DNA from: Trochalopteron elliotii
Lineage: Eukaryota; Chordata; Aves; Passeriformes; Leiothrichidae
Direction: 5' to 3'
Length of the DNA stretch: 64,000 bases
Assembly: GCA_024734555.1 (NCBI GenBank)
Contig: JANPWX010000077.1
Coordinates: 2,721,236 to 2,785,235 of the forward strand
The notes beneath the pieces were generated by a model. It did not search any database, was not told the DNA's origin, and saw only the letters and a list, made by a program, of their open reading frames with translations. Shown here one piece after another: positions 17,886 to 55,400 of the stretch; position 1 is the stretch's first letter, and every line of letters begins with the position of its first letter. A program made the translations under genes and the position numbers.

Positions 17886-17886
<1 letters not shown>

Positions 17887-17964
<78 letters not shown>

Positions 17965-17965
17965 A
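17887..17965. repeat. (GAAA)n microsatellite
   Basis: About 20 uninterrupted GAAA units. The two long frames it creates, KKERKKER-type on plus and FLSFFLSF-type on minus, are not genes. The purity suggests recent expansion and probable length polymorphism. Confidence 0.97.
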
Positions 17966-39500: not shown

Positions 39501-40636
39501 AATATAGTAAAAATTATGTCAGATAAAATTAAAATAGATGCAAGTGATGAGACTTATCAGATCACTGAAAAAGTACATTATGAAACTAAGGTTTTATGAG
39601 AATAATAGTTACTGAAATCCACACAGAGTGAATGATGTCAATGCCAAAAGTGAGTAACATACCTTCAATACAAAGGGAAAACACTGGCTAAAATTCAGGA
39701 AAAATGTGCTAGAGGCTTTATTATTATTTATAGACTGACATAACTACTGCTTTAGCAATTCCAACTACACATGGAAATATTTGTCAAAAGACTGACTAAT
39801 TCACTAAAAGATATTAATAAGTGCAAAGGGAAGAGAGCTGTTTAATTTTCTCTTCATTTGCCATTTCATCCTCTGAGAAGGTTATCCTCATCAAGAGACT
39901 GTAACAAGATTAAATGCCATCCCTCTTAGTATTTGAGACAGATGTGACACATTTTCACCTTAGAAAGAAAATGGGATGACCGTTTCAGCAGGATAGAGAT
40001 TCCCTGAGGGACAGGATCTATTAAAACAGTTGACAAAATAAAAGATTTGATGGCCAGAAGCAGAGGTGCACACAGTGTGTGCAATATGTACCATTTTTCC
40101 TATGTGCAGAATCATGTTGGCAGGAGGCAGTGCCAGCCCAGCCTCACCGGTACTGGCGTGTCATAGACAGAAGGAATGTTATGAGTCTGGGCAAAACTGT
40201 GCAGCTGAATTTCACACAGCTCTGGGTTACTCTTGTCTCTCCTTTCTAGTTAAGGCTGAATCAGGCATTCCAGCATGAAATGTCTTGTCTGGCAAGGTGA
40301 ATGTTCTACAAGCTCAGGCAGAAATGTATTTTTATCAAGGATAACTAATGGTTGATTTCTAAATAATTTATTTAAATAACGTATGCAATACTGTAAGAGG
40401 TGGAGATCTTAAAGTAGATTAGTGATGCATTTGTGTTTGCCTGCCTTTTGTGCTCACCAGGGTATGCACACATTTCTTCATAGGATATCTATCTATAATA
40501 TCTAGGATGAGAATTCAATAGACTTGGAAGAATCAGTTTCCCTAAATCTAAATTTAACCATATTATGTTGGTGTCCTGAGCTGCTTTACCAGCTAGCTTG
40601 CTCTCTGACCAGCATATAAGGAAGGTTTGGTAGGTT
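39501..40636. other. Unique DNA, no gene seen
   Basis: There is a slightly GC-richer patch at 40050-40290 with a short plus frame, and no family is recognised. Confidence 0.45.
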
Positions 40637-41075: not shown

Positions 41076-44000
41076 TTAAGTGTGAGTGTACCTGGAGATC
41101 TTCATTCTGGCATGTAAATTAAGAAAAATTAATTAAGATAATTATTATATATTTCTAATTGTTATAATAATATGTACTAGAAAAATAATTATTGTATAAA
41201 CATATAATCATGGGAATTAACTGAAATGATTAATGTCTATTATATAAATTATATACAGAAACACAGATCCACAGGAAAGTGAAGCCTAAGCTGTTTACAC
41301 TTTTAAAGATTTACATGTTAGTATGAACATATTCCTGCTCTATGATGCTTTTACCTATTATTCCATTTCAGCCCTTCATCTTCAGCTATGGAGTTTATGC
41401 CACTATTATATTATGACCGAAGTGTTATACTGCCATTCAAACTAAGACCTCTAACCCTTTAACTGAGGTTTTTAATTGTGCGTCTGAAGAGGTAATATGA
41501 GGCAGGGCATAGAACTTTGAAAAATAGTCAGAGAGCAGGTGCCTAAGTTTTTATATAGCCGACAGGATGTTTTAGCCATTAGCCAAGACAAAAATCCTGC
41601 CTGTTTAAATTTCCTCTCTGACTGATGGACCATAATTAAAAGATCCAGTCCTGCACCTATTGAGATTAGTGAAATGACTACCAGTAATTTCAGAGGCCAG
41701 TGAATTAGGACCTAAATTCTCTCCTGCTCCCCTGGGACAAAGGGCCATATGGCAAGCTGACTGCTCTTGCTCACAGTCCTACCTCAGAGAGAGAATAAAA
41801 GGCTATGTGATCAGACATGGGTACTCTGCACCTGCTCCTTTCTTTTTCAGCATCACTTCAGACTGGAAGCTGCTTTCATGGTGCTGAGTATAGGAAGTGA
41901 GAGAAAGAAAGAGAAATAATGGCTAGCTGTACCTTTTCAGTGTCATCACAATAATTTGCATTTTATTTAGAGATACAGAATACACAGCTCAGATCTCCTG
42001 GAAAAAAGAGATAATTCTTTTAGTTTTGCCTTGTTGTTGTTTCTGAAATGTTTTATTTTTGATTTGCTTCTATTGACTTCAAAGATTTTAGATTTTTTTT
42101 CTACTTCTAATGCTGAGTTATTTGATATTTTCTAATTTTTCAGCTGCATATTTAAAATTCTGAAATTGCTAATGTTTTCTTCCTTTGAAAAATAGCATAA
42201 TATATCATGATTATGATCACAGAGATTTTTAACGGCTAAGATTCTATGAAAAGTATTTCACTCTATTATACCTGATGACTCAATTTCTTCTTTATATGCA
42301 AGATGTAAACAGTGATTAATCATAATTTAAGGAAAATACTAGCGTTTTAATATTTAAATGAAATCTAGTGCTATGAGACTTGCTGTATGTAGAACAAGGC
42401 AAATTAGTCACACAGTATAATTTTCTGAAATATAAATGCTAAATGTCACAAATCAAATATTGTAGGACAAGATACTCTTAGGATTTTATTATTCTACCTG
42501 TTGAATCAATGTTGTATTTGATTGATATAATACTGGTTTAAATCAGCATAGAAGTAGCACAAAAAAAACCCACTAGGCCATCTTATATTTTAGCTGAATT
42601 TTGTAGTTGAAAGATCACTTTGCCAATTATTACAAGGACACAGATGATTTAGTTGAAAGCTGCTAGTGAAAACATACATTTAATAAGCCAAATATAAAGT
42701 TATGTGGCACAGATAGTTTAGATACTTGTATTTCCTTCACAGAGCTATTAGTCTTCATAAGCTTGCAAATCAAACCCAAAACTAAACCACTGAATTATAC
42801 CCTAACAATAGGTATAACCTTGAAGAAATGCAGCAACATAAGTTTAAGAAAGTGACACAAAACTCAAAGGGCAAGAAAATTCTGTTAAAATATGGTAGGG
42901 TAAATAGTTCTATTTAAGTATATCCTTAGTCATGGGAGATGCAGGACCCATCTGTATCACCATTCAGAAGGAATTTTGTTTCAGGCAAATGAAATCCTTG
43001 TTTAAGTTTTGAGCTGAGAATAGGAACATGCAACTTATCTATCACCTTGATCCTTCCTTCATCTATTTTTTTTTTCTTCAGAGAACCTCATACAAAAACC
43101 AATTAGAAGACTCTCTGAAGTGGAAGTGGAAGTATATATTACATCACAATCTCAGTTAAAGTCAACAGAAATCAAGATAAATTAATTAACTTATGCACAT
43201 TACCATGCCAGTCTTCAGTTTTATTTTTGACACACTGCTCCCAGCTATTATTATTTTAAAAATATTAGAAATGGCACAATTACAAGACAAACAAACTTGC
43301 AATGCAATGGGATTCCTGTAGTAATTGATGTATCTAAATGTCAAACCCCAAAGGATGTTTTTACTAATAATTTGCTTATCCTTTTTTTTTCTGTTGAAAA
43401 GCTGAGAAAATAAATATTTTATTAAACCTTTATAATTAGGTTGTTCAAAATTCAACTTAGCACTTGAAGCACCTTATGTATCTTTTGTCCAATTGACATA
43501 TCAATGTGACTCTAACATATCCTTTCTCTCTCCATCAGAGTATCTGTAGTGAAATTTAGGTCAGCTGTAACAAAAAGTTTCTGCTTTCCTGAGCCATAGG
43601 ATCTGTTCATTCTAATGCAAATAATGTCATGCTCTCATGAGTTGCAGAAAGAAAAAGCTGTCCTTTTTTCTTCCTTTTCATTGTGTTTTTGTTCTGTTTT
43701 GCTCTATATACCTGCATTTCATTTTATAGTTCCCAAAACTTTTATGAAGCTAAACAGAGATATGCAAACTCTCAGTGCAACTCAATGGAACAATTTGCAA
43801 ACATTTGAAGTCAACTATTAGTAATCCTTGATAAAAATACATTTCTTCCTAAGTGCACCTGACATTCACCTTGCCAGACAAAAAAAATCATGCTGCAATC
43901 CCTTTCCCCTCTCCTTTCTCTGAATGCGCAAACTCTTCAAATACTAACTAGGAAATAATCAAGTCCATCAGGTGTTTTACTAATATTACTTATAACACCC

Positions 44001-45580
44001 ATTTATAAAACATAATTATTTATACATGTTTAGACAATCTGTCAATTATATTATATTTAGGTCTGTATGGGTGCAGTTAGATAATAGACTGATGCAGTGA
44101 ACATATTTGAATCCTAACACATTCAGGACACCACGAAATTTCTTATATACAACACAGAGTACAAAGAAATTCTGAAAATAAATATTTATATGTATTCTGA
44201 ACAAATTTAACAAAATAATAACTACCAGAATAATGCCACAGTTGTTTTAATTTTAATGTAATGTAATTGTCTTTAAAATGTCACTATTTTAATAAAAAAA
44301 CCTTGGTTATTAGACTATCTAACCTGGATTCATTTGCTCTATATTGTCCTTATATTGATATAATTTGTTAATGCTAGCACCCAATTTAGGAGTTCAGAGT
44401 TTAGAAGTCGTAAGAAAAGGCTCAATTAGGACCTGAGGAAAGAAGAAGTTTGTGAAAAATGCATATGTACACAGCTACAGCTTACAGCTGTCAACATGAT
44501 TCATTTATTTGGTTTTTCAACCTCAGATGAGCTATAAACAATAAGAAACTAATTTCCAAATGCAGTCATGTGATGAGTAAGAAAGCACTACCACAGTTTA
44601 GAGAGACATTAAAGTAATTTTTGGAGGACTCTGCACTCTGATTAACTATGCTGGCAAAGGATTACACAAATTATGTTGTTAAGGCACAGTACAAAGTTAC
44701 ATTGCCTAAAGTCATATTTTTTCAATGCTCACTTTCTCATTACAAAGAAATCTGATTTTCTATTAAAAAAAATCATAGATGTGCAATATGCAGACAAATC
44801 TCAGTGACTACCTGAAGTGTAAGTGATAATACTGTCTTTTAAGACCTTAGGAATATAAATAAAATTATCACAATTTTTGTAATATTTTATTATGTCCTGT
44901 TTTTATTGTCCATAAGTTGTCATAGTGCTTCAATATATTAAAGTCCCTGATGACTCCAAAAGCCCTAATTAACTGATTGGACATTGTTTACTTTAGTGTC
45001 AAACCTATCTGTATTTATTTATGTTACCTGTAGGTTAAATAGTCCCTTCTTCTCACTATTTAAAATAAATTATAAGAGATATAAACCATAATGAACATTA
45101 ACAAAATTAATTTTAAAGCATTTCCATGTTATCTGCATGAATAAATACTTTTTTGTTTACTCCCTTGTTACAAAGGAGCCCATAATAAACCCACGAGGAA
45201 GTGAATCAGCTCACAGCATTTTGAAAATCAGCTTTGCTATCACCCCTTATTATGCTCTATCAAAGTGGAAGAAAGACAAATTTATTTCTCAAAAATGAAA
45301 AATCAGTATATTATTAATGACAAAGGTATGTGTCACTTCTGGAAGTAAATCCCAGTGTTCAATCATACTCAGTCATCTCTATTCAATTAGTAAGTCTGTC
45401 AGATGTATCTATCAGTGGCAGAAATGGAGGCTTGCTGTACAGCAGCCTTGGTGGAGTTATGTAGAAAGGAATATCCGATTTCTAATCAATTTATTTATTT
45501 ATACTTTTTTTTCAAAAATCTTCCTATTCTGCTTCATCCCTTTACTGACATGACAATTAATTAATATTTATGTAGTTAGG
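41076..45580. other. AT-rich unique DNA, no gene seen
   Basis: The interval is very AT-rich at 41110-41260 and 43980-44340. The segment 41740-41900 contains 'gagaataaaaggctatgtga', a TATA-like word, but no transcript can be argued. Open frames are short. Confidence 0.5.
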
Positions 45581-45586
45581 GAACCC
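45581..45586. repeat. Outer hexamer flank of left LTR (gaaccc)
   Basis: Its reverse complement, gggttc, sits not on the other side of this LTR but at 51921-51926, next to the distant inverted copy. This is read as one half of a separated target duplication. Confidence 0.8.
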
Positions 45587-46025
45587 TGTTGTGCTTTCTC
45601 TTGTGGTGGGAGCTGCTACCGGCTAGCAGTGAATCCCTCCAGACCACAGAAACATCTCGTGTGGGTCCTTCAGCTCAGCAGCTGCTGCATGGGTCAGGCT
45701 AGGATGAAGGAATCGTGCTCTCTCTTGGGTTAATAAGGATGTTTATTCAGTGCAGCCATGTGGAAGGGGCCTTGCCGGAGCCCCTTCTGGGGCTGGTAGC
45801 ATGGTGAGGGTGAGGAGAGAGAGAGAGCATGGGCGTGGTGCGTCCCTTTTTCCCAGCTCGGGGGCTGGGTGGGGAAACACTGACCCGATGGGGAATGGAA
45901 GGGGGAGGGGTCACATCAGGAGGACCCACAGGGGTAGGAATGGGGGGGTGGAAGGAACATACCAAGTACAGACTGATAACAAACACAAAATATAAATTCA
46001 AAAACCTGAAACTCATGTTGCTACA
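45587..46025 (-). mobile_element. Solo LTR, inverted copy A of a pair
   Basis: Reading on minus, it begins TGTAGCAACATGAGTTTCAGG (complement ending at 46025) and ends ...AGCACAACA (complement at 45587). A polyA signal AATAAA lies in minus orientation at 45742-45747, within 'cactgaataaacatcct'. Copy B at 51927-52488 has the same order of blocks throughout: the TGTAGC start, 'tgtatttt/ataaatttgt', the 'ggtcctcctgatgtgacc' block, 'ccttccacatggctgcactg', and the 'ctagccggtagcagct' end. The six-base flanks suggest an ERVK-like 6-bp duplication. The two flanks of this copy (gaaccc, gtttag) do not match each other. Open frames at 45747-46041 are incidental. Confidence 0.92.
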
Positions 46026-46031
46026 GTTTAG
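46026..46031. repeat. Inner hexamer flank of left LTR (gtttag)
   Basis: It is the reverse complement of ctaaac at 52489-52494, the outer flank of the distant inverted copy. Confidence 0.8.
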
Positions 46032-46252
46032 AGCTTGTTAGCCAGCACTTTTGACACTAAATAGGCGGCTAGTTGCTGGGGTTAAGAGGATTTTACAATA
46101 AAGTGTAGGAGCTCCCTGTCATATGGATTGATGTTTTTGTTCAGCGTGTCAATTTTTTTATAATGAACGTACACCTGCTTCTGGGTTGTGACAGAGGGTG
46201 ATTGCTGACTTGTAGTGTAAGACAATTTGCATCTTTCACAGTTAGATACTGA

Positions 46253-47075
46253 CACAGAATCATAAAAACTCAAAACCATACAACAGCTTGTGTTGAATGG
46301 TAGTTTAAAGATCATGTAATTCTAATGATCCTGCAGGGACGACTCCTACTAGACCAGATTGCTCAGAGCTCCTTCTAACCTGGCCTTGAACACTTCCAGG
46401 GGTGGAAAATCCACAGCTTCTCTGGGCAACCAGTTGCACTGGCTCACCACTCTTACAACAATGAACTTTCTCTTAACGTCTTGTCTAAACCTGCCATCTC
46501 TCAGTTTAAACCATTACCTCTTGTCCTCACTACATGCATTTGAAAAAAGTCCCTATCCATCTTTCTTTCAGGACTTGGAAGGCTGTCGTAAAGTGTCCTC
46601 AGAGTCTTCCCCAGGCTGAACAAGCCCAACTCTCTCAGCCTGTCTTCATAGGAGAGGTGTTCTGGTCCTCTGACCACCCTTGTGGCCCTCCTGTGGATTT
46701 GCTCCAACAGGTACATGTTCTTCTTCTGTTGGGAACCCAAAGCTGTATGCAGCTCTCCTGGGGGGGCTCACAAAAGGGAAGTAGAGGGGCAGAAACATGT
46801 CCCTTGTCCTCATGGCCCCCCTTCTTTTGATGCATTCCAGGGTGCAGTTGGCTTTCTGGGTTGAAAATGCACATAGACAGATCATATTGAGCTTCTTGTC
46901 AAATACCACCTCTTTCTCCTCAGGGTTGCTCTCAATCCATACTCCAATCACCCTGTGTTTGTGCTTGGCATTGCCCTGACCTATGTGCAGCACCTTGTAC
47001 ACTTGCTCTATTGAACTTCATGAGGTTTGCAAAGGCCCACCTATAACACTTGCCAAGGTCCCTCTGGACCTTGGA
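46253..47075 (-). mobile_element. CR1 LINE, 5'-truncated, about 0.8 kb
   Basis: The plus strand opens 'cacagaatcataaaaactca', the complement of a CR1 3' end. It passes through 'aacctggccttgaacacttc', 'cttctctgggcaaccagttg', 'tgaccacccttgtggccctc', 'ggatttgctccaacaggtac' and 'cagggtgcagttggctttct'. It continues to 'ctcagggttgctctcaatcc' and 'aaggtccctctgg'. A minus frame at 46501-46740 retains ORF2 C-terminal text (RATRVVRGPEHLSYEDRLRE, then LGLFSLGK) before frameshifts. It is a dead copy. It lies inside the segment inferred to have been inverted, so its ancestral orientation would have been plus. Confidence 0.93.
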
Positions 47076-48690
47076 AAATGTGAGCTAGAAAAATCTCACA
47101 TTAACAAGAAAGCCTTAAAGATATCTAAAAGCCAATCTTCAGTAAAGATTTTTAAAAACATCAGGGTGACTGGAACCAGTGAAATCATAGTGAACATCCT
47201 GAAAGCATCTTCTGCTTTTTGACACTAACAGCTGACACAAGAAAAATGGGTAGAATAACAAGCCTGGACACCGGGAGCTGTGACCCTCTAACTCAGCAAA
47301 TATAATGCTGTCCATGCTACAGATCACAATCAATGATAACTCTGTGAGATCTCGGGACTAAGCCTGGGTAGGTGTTCTGTGTCTCCTCCTACTTTGGTGT
47401 GGGTTGGAAGTTTGTTTCAGCTCATTTGGGTGCAACACTGATTGCCTAAACCCTGTGACTCTTACTGAACTTTAGTACAACTTCGTTTTGTGAAGTCCCA
47501 TTGCAGCAATGTTTTTAATATGGTGAAATATTAGTAAACCTAACATATAAAAGCCACTTATTATGTGTAAAATAAATGCTCTGCAGCCCTAAATTTAAAA
47601 AGCAATTTACAGAAATGCAAATTTGTGGTGACAACAAACACCTTGAAACTGTAGGCATGATACCAGAGGTTCCAGAACTATAAACAAACAACTAATAGCC
47701 ATTGATTTGTTATAAAGAAATGTAACCTTGGAAGCTGGGGTAAGCCCTTTTCTTTCATCAGTAACAGAGAACAAGTATCCAAAGAACAAGTATCCAGAGT
47801 AAATAAACCCCAACATGTATAGTAAATAAAGATAAAATGAGGAATTGTGGAGCAACAGAGAAAGATCAAGGTAGGCAGTGTTACAAAAGGCACAGAAATA
47901 ACCCCAAGAGAATCCATGGTCAAGACGCACTTCCCTATAATACCATATTCTCATGGGGAAGGGCTCATAAAGCTGACAGCTCGGTGTAACACACCCTCAC
48001 ACCCCCTGAGGGCATCAGGTTTAGGAATCACATAGGCAGTGGGTGAGCATAACAACAGCAGAAGGAAGGAGTAGATGCACAAAATGGAAGCAGAGTAATT
48101 TTAATCAAATCATTCATCAGAGAGGGTTGTTTTGTTTTTGTTTTTTTTTTTTTTTCTCTGGCTTTAGCTGATTTTAGATTTGCAGTTTGGTTTATTTTTT
48201 CAATTTTATTTGTTTTTTTTCTAATAATTAGATCAGGATTAAAGATAATTAAACAGTTGAGATTAAAATTAGATTGAACATTAAGTCGGCTTTAAGTATG
48301 AGGTGTATCTCTTTTGTCCTCATAAATTGCATAACTCACAGTGCAATAAATTGGTGGAGAATGCATGCCGGCAAAGACCTAATTCAGATGCCATAAGTCA
48401 AAACCAAAAACACAATAGGTTCACGTGGGAAATCAAAATTACCTAGGCTTCTTTGATTATATTATATCACAAACCTAAACCTTTGAAAATGTTCCTTCAG
48501 CAGTGGAGGCTGACAGCAGTAATTATGATAAACATATTAAAACATTTAGACAATGTGAAAGGGCTTTAGTGAAAAAAAAGGCAACCTAGAACATCTCTTA
48601 TAGAAAAGAGAATTGAAAGAGGTCATCATCATTATTAATGATTGAAGATAGTGAGTCTAAAATAAAAGGCGAGAATGTTTGGAGTAATGG
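47076..48690. other. Unique DNA, no gene seen
   Basis: It contains a 15-bp tandem repeat (gaacaagtatccaaa at 47769-47783, then gaacaagtatccaga at 47784-47798) and a T-rich tract at 48128-48222. No coding exon is supported. Confidence 0.5.
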
Positions 48691-48699
48691 ACTTCGCCT

Positions 48700-48905
48700 T
48701 CACAATCAGCCATTACATGTGATGGAAACCTGCTTTTCCTGGAGATGGTTGAACACTTGCCTGGGAAATTGAGAATTAATTCCTTATTTTGCTCTGTTCC
48801 TACACATACCTTTTGCTTTACTTATTAAACTGTTTTTCTCTCAAAACATGAGTTTTCCAGTGACAGATGCATCCCATTTATCACCACGGGGATGTAAAAA
48901 ATAAC
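48700..48905 (+). mobile_element. ERVL LTR 3' fragment
   Basis: The text 'gtgatggaaacctgctttt', 'cctggagatggttgaacact', 'ccttattttgctctgttcct', 'ccttttgctttacttattaa' and 'ctctcaaaacatgagttttc' appears in the order of the 3' half of the common avian ERVL LTR. The U5 end is not preserved beyond about 48905. It is a decayed fragment inside the inferred inverted segment. Confidence 0.7.
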
Positions 48906-51900
48906 TATTAAACTGCAGTGAAAACCACATGGATGGTGAGACAAGATTCAACTGTAAGAACATCATTAGCACACATTAGCCATGAACGTTCACCTTAAAG
49001 ACCCCCAGTAAATTAACAAAGAAACAAAGCCCCCAAATGTTAATTACACCTATTTTCATTAGGATTGCCTTTTGTTATCCGTCTCAATAGCACTACATAC
49101 TGTGAGAAAAGCTAGAATTGTGTCAAGCTTCAAGAAAATTCATGTATCAGAAGGGCACAAATCCTTCATGAGAACTAAGCTTTTTTATCTACTGGCCATT
49201 TCCTTCATGCTTTCTTCTAAGAGTTAAAAGCATTGTAGTATGATGTTCAGAAGGAAGCTTGAAAGAAATGTTGACGTTATTTAAGTAGAAAGAGTCAATA
49301 GACTCCTCCTCTCTTGATAAATACAGACATCTTTTGTACAATGCACCTGGTCTTGTGAACTATTTGGCACTGAGGAATCCAAATAATTTCTGTTAGGCAA
49401 ATATTTGCAAAGTGAATATGAATAGCATTAGCCTCAACTGACCTCACAAAAAAGTGTATTGTACTTACTGAGATTGTGTTTGTTAACTTATCCCTTTTCA
49501 ATTGTGACTCAGGCTTAGGAGGAAATTTAAGTGTTGAAAGCAGAGAATGGAATCTAAATTCCTCCTCCAGGTTCTTTACTTCTATTGATCATGGAAACAG
49601 CAGGTGTTTTGAAAAGTGGGCTCACTGAAGAACCACGGAGACTGTGAAAACCCTAAAACACACCATTTTATATCTAAACCAGAAAATACAGACTAGAGCT
49701 AACTGACATACAATAGCTCAGGTCAATCTTATTCCTTCTCCCAATTTCCTAACACAGGATGACCTTATTCAAATCAAGAGTTGAGAAGAATCCTTGCCCC
49801 ATGTTTTATTCCTGACACCACAGTGTTGTCAGAGAAAGCATACATAGGACAAGAGTATAGAAACAAATACGTTAAATTTAAGGAGTGTGGAAGATTTATT
49901 TTATGCTGATGCTCAAGCCTGGTTGATCAACTTTTGCTTTTCAACTTAGACAGGTTAGGAAGCTGGAATCAATTCCAGAAATTGAATCAACTACTTTTGC
50001 TTTTATTTAATTGCATTCCTATCACAGCTGTCTCATACCAGTTGCGATGCCTAAGGATACAGTTGCTGTCATCCCAGTGCCACACTGAGAGTCTCCAGCA
50101 GGATCTATGCCAGATCTGCAACAATCGTATCTGTTAGATGCCTCAACTACCTCCACGCTTAGGTAGATGAATCAAGACTCTGATCTCTGCTGACTATGGT
50201 GAAAATTTAAATATCTAAACTTATGTGCAGACTGTATCACATAGGTGTTTACATGCAGTCTAAACACAAACTCCACTATGACTGTAGTTTTGAAGTATTT
50301 TCAGAAAAATCTTTAAAATGCATATCTCTTACGAAACTTCTTCCCCTATCATATACTAAGCTTAATATTGTTTGAGTCTGTCAGTTATTTAGGATGTACA
50401 GCGTTGGCAGATTTTTTTGTTTATATGCATTGTGATATAGACTTTAATGACCTGTTTATACATCTCATTTCCTATCTAGTTGGAGTTTATAATGTATTTT
50501 ACTGATTAGCTATGACTATAGATTGTTATTCTTCACATTGTTCAATTTGAAATCTCACAATTTATTCTGTTCACATTGTGTGAACACTATTGTGAACAGA
50601 GAATTATGGACTAATGCACCACAAAAACAGTTTTTATAGGCATCAACCACTTTATATTCACAATGCTGTTCTAAGAAAATTAATGTCATCCCATTTCTAC
50701 AATGAAAGAACTGAAGGAGCAATATTTAAGGTCAAGCTGTCTGCCAGTTTTGAATAGCCAAATAAAATTACATACTCTGGTGGTGTATGGAGCACACAGC
50801 AATGTGTATTAACTCTGTGCAGCACCTCATTCTTTCAAATCTTAAATTCCATTGATTTTTCTGTTACAGCTATAAGTATTCAGCAATTACGTATCTTACA
50901 CCAATGAAGAAACTAGTGGATAGAGGAAATGAGAAACACCATGATTAACAGGACCTCAAATTACTTTTAAATAAATTAGTATATATCAAATAGTAAGTAA
51001 AGCTCAAGCACAAAGAACCCGACCTGAGAGAGAGGTGGAATTTAGCTACCAAAATTTTCATAACATCTCAGGCCACCCAGTCTACAAAGTTTTTCAATTT
51101 TATAAGAGCCTATTTATTTAGTCTCTCAAAGGAGAGACTATCAATCTCAGAATTTCCTAAGGGTAAACACATTTTTTACTCATGGAAAAGTTAGAGTTGT
51201 AGTGTCTTGTTTAATTAGTTGGGTGGTTTTGTTTTGGTTTGATTTTGGTTTTGGTTTTGGGTGCTTTTTTTGTTTGCTTATTTGTTTGTTTACTTTTCAA
51301 AATAGATTAGAGAATCTTCTGAGGTGTGTAAATCTCAAATCTAAGTCCTTTTTTGGACCCACAGTTCTTATTTTTTTGAACAGTGCTCTAGTTATCCAGT
51401 CTATCATTGTGGATAGAATTTGGAGGTACCTCCTGAAATACAACAGTGGAGACACTTCCCTCACAACAGGGAATTTCTGAGAGTGCGTGAGTTTATCTCC
51501 ATTGACTTTTTACTTGCACATCACCTCATACAGATTTCACTATTTCAGCTGTACCTTTATATTAAAAATCCCCTATTTTGTATCTCAGGTGGCCCTTTTT
51601 CTATGGTGCATGCATGCAATGAGAAGTAGAATATAAAGTTAAATAATTAATACAATTATGACAAATCAGATGTCATTTAAAAAAGAGCAGAAATGCAATG
51701 ATTATATAGAAATAAAAGTGCCAGTGCCATAATTTAAGTGTTTTAAGGACTGATTTATATGTGCACTCATAAAAGTTATATATTTTACCAGTTGGACATG
51801 TGGTATAAAGTGAACTGTGAAAGAGGAACTCAAGGCCCATTTTTTCATATAGTTCCCGAAGAATCAGCAAATAAAGAATAGGCATAATTTACTTCTTGTC

Positions 51901-51920
51901 TTTAGAGGCTGAGATATGAG
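48906..51920. other. AT-rich unique DNA, no gene seen
   Basis: A GT/T-rich tract lies at 51215-51295, similar to those at 13372 and 28826. Inverted repeats at 50566-50600 are listed separately. No coding exon is supported. Confidence 0.5.
50566..50600. repeat. 10-bp inverted repeat with 15-nt spacer
   Basis: tctgttcaca (50566-50575) pairs with tgtgaacaga (50591-50600). A third related word, tgtgaac, sits in the spacer (50579-50585), so two alternative hairpins are possible. Confidence 0.8.
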
Positions 51921-51926
51921 GGGTTC
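51921..51926. repeat. Inner hexamer flank of right LTR (gggttc)
   Basis: It is the reverse complement of gaaccc at 45581-45586, the outer flank of the left copy. Confidence 0.8.
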
Positions 51927-52488
51927 TGTAGCGACGTGAGTTTCAGGTTTTTGAATTTGTATTTTGTGTTTGTTATCAGCACTTGGAACTTGGTATGTTC
52001 CTTCCACCCCCCACATTCCTACCCCTGTGGGTCCTCCTGATGTGACCCCACCCCCTTCCGTTCCCCATTGGGTCAGTGTTTCCTCGCCCACCCCCGAGCT
52101 GGGAAAAAGGGACACACCGCGGCCATGCTCTCTCTCTCTCGCTCGCTCTCGCTCTCTCTCTCTCTCTCTCTCGCTCTCGCTCTCTCTCTCGCTCTCTCGC
52201 TCTCTCTCCCTCTCTCCCTCTCTCCTCTCCCCCTCTCCCCCTCTCCCCCTCTCTCTCCTCGCCCTCACCGTGCTACCACCATGGTGAGAAGGGGCTCCGG
52301 CAAGGCCCCTTCCACATGGCTGCACTGAATAAACATCCTTATTAACTCAAGAGAGAGCATGATTCCTTCATCCTAGCCTGACCCATGCAGCAGCTGCTGA
52401 GCTGAAGGACCCAGACGAGATGTTTCTGTGGCCTGGAGGGATTCACTGCTAGCCGGTAGCAGCTTCCACCACAAGAGAAACCACAACA
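51927..52488 (+). mobile_element. Solo LTR, inverted copy B of a pair
   Basis: It begins TGTAGCGACGTGAGTTTCAGG and ends AAACCACAACA. AATAAA lies at 52328-52333 within 'cactgaataaacatccttat'. It is the same family as copy A, but 123 bp longer, mainly because of a CT-rich expansion at 52127-52258. It keeps CpG at positions where copy A has CA (gcgacgtg against gcaacatg). Its flanks gggttc and ctaaac differ from each other, and each matches one flank of copy A. Long open frames at 51864-52345 on both strands come from the CT array and are not genes. Confidence 0.93.
52127..52258. repeat. CT-rich microsatellite (CTCTCT with GCTC and CCCT variants)
   Basis: About 130 bp of CT repeats with interspersed CG and CC variants, expanded inside LTR copy B. 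Copy A has only a short GA run at the equivalent place (45814-45827). Confidence 0.95.
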
Positions 52489-52494
52489 CTAAAC
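52489..52494. repeat. Outer hexamer flank of right LTR (ctaaac)
   Basis: It is the reverse complement of gtttag at 46026-46031. Confidence 0.8.
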
Positions 52495-55400
52495 TTTTAA
52501 AATAAACTTTACCAAGCTCCCAACTCTCAGAACAAATTTCAGATATGAAGTAAGGAGTAGAATATGACCACCACAATTGCTGGGATAAAACAAGAGAGAG
52601 GAAAATAAGAAAAAGAAAAGGAGAGAAAGAGGAGGAAAAAGACCAGTCTGTAGATCCCATGTCTTTCTTGCTGCCATGGATGGTCTGGATCTGGAGTCAA
52701 TGAAAGAGAGAGAGAGAAAGAGACAGAGACAGAGAATAGAGAGAGACTAATCAGTTTACAGCTTACCTTATTTACCTGGTATATGTCTCTTATGTAAAAT
52801 AAATTTTTTGCACCATTTGTGCTATATTGTTCACACATGCACAGCTAGCCCTTTAGACCCTTCCAGGAAATGAGTCAGGGAAAACTGGGAGTCTGTGGTG
52901 GTTCTGAAGCCCCTTTTAGTGTGGTACCCTGGACTTGATCGTTCCCTTTATGCAGGTGCACTGAGTATGAATCTCAAGGCAAACTTGAGACCCTAGCAAC
53001 TAAAAATTTAGTTCAGAACAGCACTGCTCTACCTCCACAGGACCCTCTGTTCCAATCAGAAATTTCCTGTTGCAATAGTCAGAATGCTTCAGATAAATCA
53101 TGCTGACTTGTTTATGCTTGGTCCTTCGTGCTACCTTCTCTTGAAGTCCACACTATATCTCACCTCTTTCCTTTTCCAGTAAGTACTGAAACCTGCCCTC
53201 AGTTTTAACTGTAATTTCTCACCATACTGTTGTTTTCATTACCTTTTGTGTTGGTTTCTTTGCTGCTTTCTGTGTTCAGTTTTTTCAGCTTTAGTTTCTG
53301 TGTAGCAGTGCCAAGAATTTGTAAATGCTGATACAAGCTGCTGAGCATGCCTTTGCAATTTTGGTAGATGACCTGATTTTAAAATCGATGCAAATATAAT
53401 TAGTTTGTGGTGGATTTATTGTTGTCAGTGGGTTTTTTTTATTTTATTTTGCCATCTGTCGGGCTCTGTGTTTCTTTTAAAAGGAACGGGATACTCAAAA
53501 ACTAGGTCAGAAACATTGACAACTATTCTGAGAATGATTGCTCATTGTTTTAGAAATTGGTTCCTCTCAGAGGCTATTATTGGTCATAATGTGGGGGATG
53601 AAAAGGTAATGGAACTGGTGTTTGCCCCCTTTTTATGCCCTGATGCAACATCCTTCAGTAGAACTGGCATTTTAGGAATGTGGTCAACAGATAAGAATAG
53701 ATAAAATTCCACTAAGGTCTACCTTTGGCAGCAGCCAGCAGCAAGTGCCTAGGGATATAGTAGAATAACAGAGTGAACTCAGAGTAACACTATAGAAAAA
53801 ATATTTTTCACATAAAAGTGCTTTTGTTTTTATTTACAAGAGAGTGCAGAAGCACAGGATAAATACAGGTACTTCAATCAGTAATCGTACTCCAGGAGAT
53901 GGACTAGGTAAGCTTCAGGTGATACAAAACCCCAACAGATTTTATAATCAATAATCAACAAATATAAATTCCTCTCTAGAAATATAATACATAATAGGCA
54001 TGATAAATGAAGTATTAGCAGTACTGCTACAGAAAAGAAGGAACAAATTGTTATTGCTAGACAAACATAGCCTTCACAAATAAAATCAGGTTTTGCCATT
54101 TTCTTGAATATTGATATCCACAGTGTTTCGCCAAGTAAGATATGTCTTGATATTACCTCTTATTTTTTAACAAATCTTTTGACTGGCCTCCAAGTCCATC
54201 TGTGTATTCCACTGTCACCAGAAATCAATACAATTGCTTTCAGAAGAAAACCTTTTTCCACATTGGAGTTGCCATTTTTGCCATGGAAGTTCTCACATAG
54301 TCTGAAATAGTAATTGACTGAAGTGTCACATTGCTATGTCCAAATAAAAGGAAGAAGACACAAACTCAGTAGCTGCATGTTAGCTCATTTGGTAACACTG
54401 AAGAACACCCCAAGGGCTTATTTACAGCAACCTATAGTTGCATCAAATGTGCTTCTTAATCTTAGCAAGGAAATGTCATGAATGAAAATAAGAGGTAACT
54501 TGCTGATCATAACTTGCCAATGTTAGAGATATGCCTCTAACAACAAAAGATCTTAAATTAAAAATGAAAGTGAGAAGACAGATCTGCTGTGGAATGACCA
54601 ATGGTTGGGAGCTCTGTCTACATTTAAGTCTTGGTAGTCCTAGGTGACAGTAGATAGCAGTTGAAGACTTCTGCCCTTTCTAAACTTTAACTTATTTTCT
54701 CATCAATTGACTGCTAAAGAACTCTAATATACAAGCCTCTGGGACCAAGAAATATTGTATCTATTACTGCCCTGATCATACACTGCCTATTCTCATCTTT
54801 CCCCTATAAAGTGGGTGATAGGTTAAGACTAATTGCAGAAAGTAGAAGCCCCAAATAGCAGTCAACTTCATGACCACAGTGACAGCTATAAGGTTGCTTG
54901 AATTCATAGAGGAAGCTGTTGAACTTGTTTGCAGTTCTCAAAACAATTCTAGTGGCAATAATGTATTTTAAAGCAAGAAACTTAATTTACCAGAAAAAGT
55001 CCCATGCTAACAGGTGTTTGTTTCTTACATCACCAATGTTCTCATAGACACCCATCAGACACCTATCATTTCAGCAGTGGAAAGAGTGAGACCAGAGGAT
55101 GCCATGACTGCTGGACATGCTTTTAAAGCCCCTGTGAGGTTATTGTAAAAGGATACAGAAATATGTTTTATGTTTTAGCTGGTCTGTCTGAAGCTGCAGA
55201 AAGTCAACACCATCAAGCTTCTGGCATGCAAAAAAATAGTAAATACTTGGGAGACCGCACAGCATGAGTAAACAAGGGTGGCATATATGTAAGTGTGTGT
55301 AGTTGAGTGATTCATCAATCTTAAAACAGATCTGTAAAATAATTTGGACAAATTAAATTCAAGAAGTCCCTTATTTTTCTATTAATTATAAAAGTCAGGC

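Follow-up and report, generated by a model that had tools for sequence, protein, structure and literature searches.

Two solo LTRs of one family lie in opposite orientation in the window (the 64,000-nucleotide stretch of Trochalopteron elliotii DNA that was analysed), and the short target duplications at their edges have been exchanged between them. We attribute this, with a probability of roughly 86%, to two LTR insertions followed by recombination between the inverted elements, which flipped about 5.9 kb of DNA in the animal. Events of this type are already known; here, one is well documented from one genome.

The left solo LTR is 439 bp long and occupies positions 45587-46025 on the minus strand, as determined from the sequence and by BLAST. 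The right solo LTR is 562 bp long, lies at 51927-52488 on the plus strand and contains an expanded CT-rich microsatellite. Both have TG...CA ends. Between their inner edges lies the inverted segment of 5901 bp (46026-51926), which was delimited by the exchanged duplications and by the junction test described below. Read on the plus strand, the left LTR is flanked by GAACCC on the outside (45581-45586) and GTTTAG on the inside (46026-46031), and the right LTR by GGGTTC on the inside (51921-51926) and CTAAAC on the outside (52489-52494). The two hexamers of each LTR mismatch. Crosswise, they are reverse complements of each other (GAACCC/GGGTTC and GTTTAG/CTAAAC). We assigned GAACCC and GGGTTC to the duplication of one insertion (A), and CTAAAC together with its displaced half GTTTAG to that of the other (B).

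These LTR coordinates, orientations and hexamers had been given by the sequence-only reading and proved exact when the sequence was re-read. It had also held that turning 46026-51926 back would leave each LTR flanked by a perfect 6-bp duplication, and this was borne out for both LTRs. Moreover, two such matches had been called very unlikely by chance. Based on the 6-mer frequencies of the window, the probability of two random reverse-complement hexamer matches is ~2.6e-7, in agreement with that view, and the frequency product for these two actual hexamers is 3.4e-8. A composite element, in which the inverted LTRs and the segment between them were inserted as a single unit, was rejected because the outer hexamers GAACCC and CTAAAC differ.

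When the left LTR was compared with the right LTR by BLAST, two inverted pieces were found, one of 240 columns with 93.8% identity and one of 220 columns with 91.4%. The length difference of 123 bp is mostly due to the CT-rich microsatellite, located at 52128-52257 in the right copy. The outer 202 bases of the pair are 97% complementary and gap-free, and the longest exact words in common comprise 60 and 53 bases. The whole structure spans 6.9 kb, and the window contains no N. Long LTR copies also occurred elsewhere, namely L033 and L034 (on C194 and C1612) with 548 bp.

A genome search with the left LTR gave 1083 candidates, 40 of which were scored; hence, the family is probably larger than the sampled copies. 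The sample comprised 54 merged copies besides the pair, which were chosen by their similarity to the pair and are non-random. TG...CA ends and 6-bp target duplications were found in most listed copies. A target duplication of 6 bp is typical of ERVK-like (class II) LTR elements. Comparable copies, with both ends present and host DNA on either side, numbered 49 of 54. The five left out were two 5' truncated copies (L039 and L054) and three copies adjoining internal proviral sequence, as judged from the bases beyond the LTR (L025, L060 and L084). The internal flank of L025 starts with AAATGGCGCCCAGACG, which we take to resemble a lysine tRNA primer site; L084 and L060 do not have that sequence in full.

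Exact 6-bp duplications were present in 36 of the 49 comparable copies, and duplications with a single mismatch in nine. Two copies matched after a shift: L010 with a five-base match offset by one base, and L028 with a six-base match if the LTR end is set three bases earlier. The remaining two had weak duplications, with two mismatches in L081 and three in L016 (which may hold a one-base InDel). The window pair showed five mismatches per copy, exceeding every one of the 49. Because 45 of these have at most one mismatch versus five in each LTR of the pair, the missing duplication of the pair is exceptional in its LTR family.

Insertion B landed in an old dispersed repeat, and site B could therefore be checked without other species. 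An inner piece of the repeat was found in 46032-46250 and an outer piece, including a GA-rich end, in 52489-52760 (the stretches searched), both by matches to paralogs. For the restored site B, the reverse complement of 46032-46250 was joined to the sequence from 52489 onward and searched genome-wide as one sequence. Besides two self matches, one per strand, there were 42 non-self matches. Ten of the non-self matches, distributed over eight contigs, reach 20 bases or more past the join in both directions. A further 24 lie wholly within the GA-rich tail, and eight fall into neither class. The best join-spanning match covered query positions 58-426 with 73% identity (E 3.1e-52). One join-spanning paralog, whose identity exceeds that of the other nine (L092 on C25), was read over 120 bases and has no gap at the join; the only gap in its alignment is a single base, 69 bases from the join. 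Its score was 128 against the restored join, and 86 and 45 against the two pieces alone.

As a control, 45367-45586 was placed directly before 46032-46250, and this present left junction was searched genome-wide. None of its four non-self matches crossed the join: three begin at base 1 or 2 past it, and the fourth begins eight bases on. Two of these four paralogs (C25 and C78:1022607) continue across the restored site B join, while C1228 extends three bases beyond it and C16:4431106 does not reach it. In a local check with one paralog, L092 was also found to stop at the present right junction. The restored junction A lies in single-copy DNA, with only two self matches on opposite strands in the genome search. 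Since paralogs run across the restored join, the old repeat spanned site B before the insertion, its halves now lying 6 kb apart in opposite orientation. As paralogs cross the restored site B and none of the four crosses the present left junction, the present order of the segment appears to be the derived one. The inversion reading predicts that flipping the segment back restores contiguous ancestral DNA at both empty sites, and this held at site B (10 of 42 matches crossing, compared with 0 of 4 in the control).

The history that we propose would start with two elements of one LTR-retroelement family inserting in opposite orientation at sites ~5.9 kb from each other. Each insertion would make its own 6-bp target duplication, GAACCC at A and CTAAAC at B. 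Non-allelic homologous recombination between the inverted copies would then flip the intervening DNA, and each LTR would afterwards carry half of each duplication. Full proviruses at the time of recombination would leave the same scars as solo LTRs. Two insertions and an ectopic inversion of ~5.9 kb had also been the core of the sequence-only reading. The exchanged duplications, the intact 6-bp duplications usual in the family and the contiguity at site B support this sequence of events; for the mechanism, we infer recombination, with the crossover lying either within the elements or between them, and for the place, the animal and not the assembly.

There is a modest chance that the inversion is segregating, i.e. 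that the event is real and that a second haplotype exists in the population besides the assembled one. Recombination between inverted repeats can occur more than once, and one haplotype is seen here. Such a polymorphism is compatible with two insertions and a subsequent inversion, and the two explanations are not exclusive.

An assembly error would mean that the true genome is un-inverted and that the flip between the inverted LTRs was introduced by the assembler. Such an error would likewise leave exchanged duplications and a broken repeat. However, the identity of the LTRs is only ~91-94%, their lengths are 123 bp apart, no word in common exceeds 60 bases (the second longest having 53), the window is without N, and it lies on a contig of 5.5 Mb. 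For these reasons, we judged a misassembly to be unlikely. Moreover, 6.9 kb is short for long reads, the use of which is suggested by the 5.5-Mb contig, and the genome searches with the restored junctions A and B turned up no contig carrying the un-inverted order.

The LTR tree was built from 54 LTRs, namely the pair plus 52 further copies (L039 and L054 were left out). The pair appeared as sisters with a support of 98, a common stem of 0.033 and tips of 0.034 and 0.060. After masking of CpG columns (30 of 414), the support was 95 and the stem 0.015. The outer (3') halves of the pair were sisters as well (support 99). For the inner (5') halves, the pair was not recovered as sisters, with weak support; here, the right LTR paired with L029 at 57. 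The private changes of the two copies (11 versus 16, p 0.44) were compatible with one age. Among the states that are common to the pair and in the minority elsewhere, 11 of 12 also occurred in at least two of the 52 other copies, while this held for 10 of the 27 private states (Fisher p 0.0019). Because of this difference in recurrence, the common states of the pair are for the most part standing family variation, which fits a common source as well as conversion of one copy by the other. On the same grounds, the sister relation was not put down to post-insertion gene conversion alone.

The sister relation bears on a one-step origin, in which two viral DNAs in one germ cell integrate with swapped ends 5.9 kb apart. 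The inversion and the exchanged duplications would then arise together with no loss of host DNA, and the proviruses would later shrink to solo LTRs. If this were true, the sister relation would reflect a common source; two insertions made independently 6 kb from each other would be unlikely to show it. The two LTRs being mutual closest relatives in the tree, also with CpG columns masked, and private changes fitting one age both favour this origin. However, a single source predicts near-identical copies, and the pair differs at 10 sites at which both states occur in at least two other copies, although some of these are CpG sites and independent decay is likely. The inner LTR halves, not being sisters (weak support), also argue against it. 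Aberrant integrations are described to leave large duplications or deletions and, less often, inversions (PMC5041404). In the available part of that paper, they originate when one end is badly inserted, and there is no description of two exact short duplications. Overall, we consider the one-step origin to be very improbable. The chance of two damaged or unusual insertions with coincidentally matching flanks is negligible, given the hexamer probability stated above and an old repeat that is contiguous after the flip and broken at the present left junction; in our view, the junction test already refutes such a coincidence.

Within the LTRs, the 10 sites with standing variants all lie at LTR positions up to 311. 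From position 312 to the end, the pair differs at four sites (365, 383, 416 and 432), and the differing state at each of them was found in none or one of the 52 other copies. This pattern hints at conversion or crossover in the outer part of the LTRs, which would fit it. The tentative exchange stretch (LTR positions 312-434) corresponds to 45592-45714 in the left copy and 52361-52483 in the right copy. The run test on standing variants was not significant (p 0.09), and neither was the tract permutation test (p 0.57); LTR chimerism is therefore treated as a hint. The sites discriminating the two LTRs showed no usable linkage within the family. If the outer exchange is true, the greater part of each LTR (positions 1-311) was relocated by the flip.

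Similarity among linked LTRs was also seen beyond the pair. A 15-base word with two rare states common to the pair (LTR positions ~319-333) occurred six times in the 1.04-Gb assembly, four of them on the 5.5-Mb contig of the window (C69:1631856, 2426068, 2766929 and 2773602; the others at C4:1645151 and C90:3923514). Two of the sites on C69 are the pair itself and one is L085; the sites on C4 and C90 are candidate LTRs. A chromosome-limited LTR haplotype is possible. In the midpoint-rooted tree, three of 16 two-copy clades lie on one contig. Besides the pair, these are L015/L021 (C260:1819026 and 2021135, 202 kb apart) and L029/L052 (C69:3401258 and 3523003, 122 kb apart), both with different flanking hexamers. 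Same-contig pairs had 2.24 rare states in common versus 0.29 for other pairs (21 pairs; 0 of 5000 label shuffles), with two pairs supplying 18 of the 47 states and the sample being biased towards the contig of the window pair. Without the window pair, the value was 2.58 over 12 pairs. This sharing could result from gene conversion among linked LTRs, from linked insertions of one infection or from a contig that is dense in the family.

No nameable gene was found in the inverted segment: Pfam gave no family for 10 of the 59 listed open frames of the window, and Rfam at gathering thresholds gave nothing in the window. Inside the segment, about 46250-47090 is presumably a CR1 fragment, which would suit a bird genome. 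A further inverted similar pair was located at 40263-40364 and 43803-43903 (82% over ~100 bases), and a perfect AGAA tandem array with 20 copies at 17886-17965.

Hughes and Coffin (2001 and 2005) reportedly read mismatched duplications around HERV elements as recombination between elements. The HERVs are primate elements, whereas here, both partners were found in a bird, together with one empty site via the old-repeat paralogs of the same genome. In Drosophila buzzatii, the Galileo inversion 2z3 was attributed to ectopic recombination (Delprat et al. 2009, PMC2775673). According to the available text of that paper, copies in opposite orientation lie at the inversion ends and their target duplications are exchanged, as in our case. 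Unlike the LTR pair, Galileo is a DNA transposon with 7-bp duplications, and 2z3 is a naturally occurring chromosomal inversion that was mapped in carrier and non-carrier lines, whereas our case comes from a single genome. The rival considered there was the insertion of a hybrid element, which leads to two identical copies, while recombination leads to chimeric copies. Chimeric copies were reported for 2z3; here, chimerism is only hinted at.

Intact flanking duplications were used as a test of rearrangement between elements in a survey of CfERV-Fc1(a) in canids (PMC6407205). In the available text of the survey, the 5-bp repeats of every individual provirus matched, and no such rearrangement was inferred, unlike for the pair described here. 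For bird genomes, abundant ERVK solo LTRs formed by homologous recombination were reported (PMC11009239). The part of this work available to us concerns the loss of the proviral interior and not an inversion between two loci; the family in the window is a candidate ERVK family. No case of exchanged duplications appears in the available parts of PMC3625200 or PMC2672092.

From the scars alone, one can read which two elements took part, where both breakpoints lie and what the ancestral order was, which makes this a clean case of how old retroviral insertions can rearrange a genome. As one insertion lies inside an older repeat, the paralogs of this repeat serve as an outgroup within a single genome. 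The same approach, extended to every LTR copy whose duplications do not match, could yield a count of small inversions that might be overlooked in alignments.
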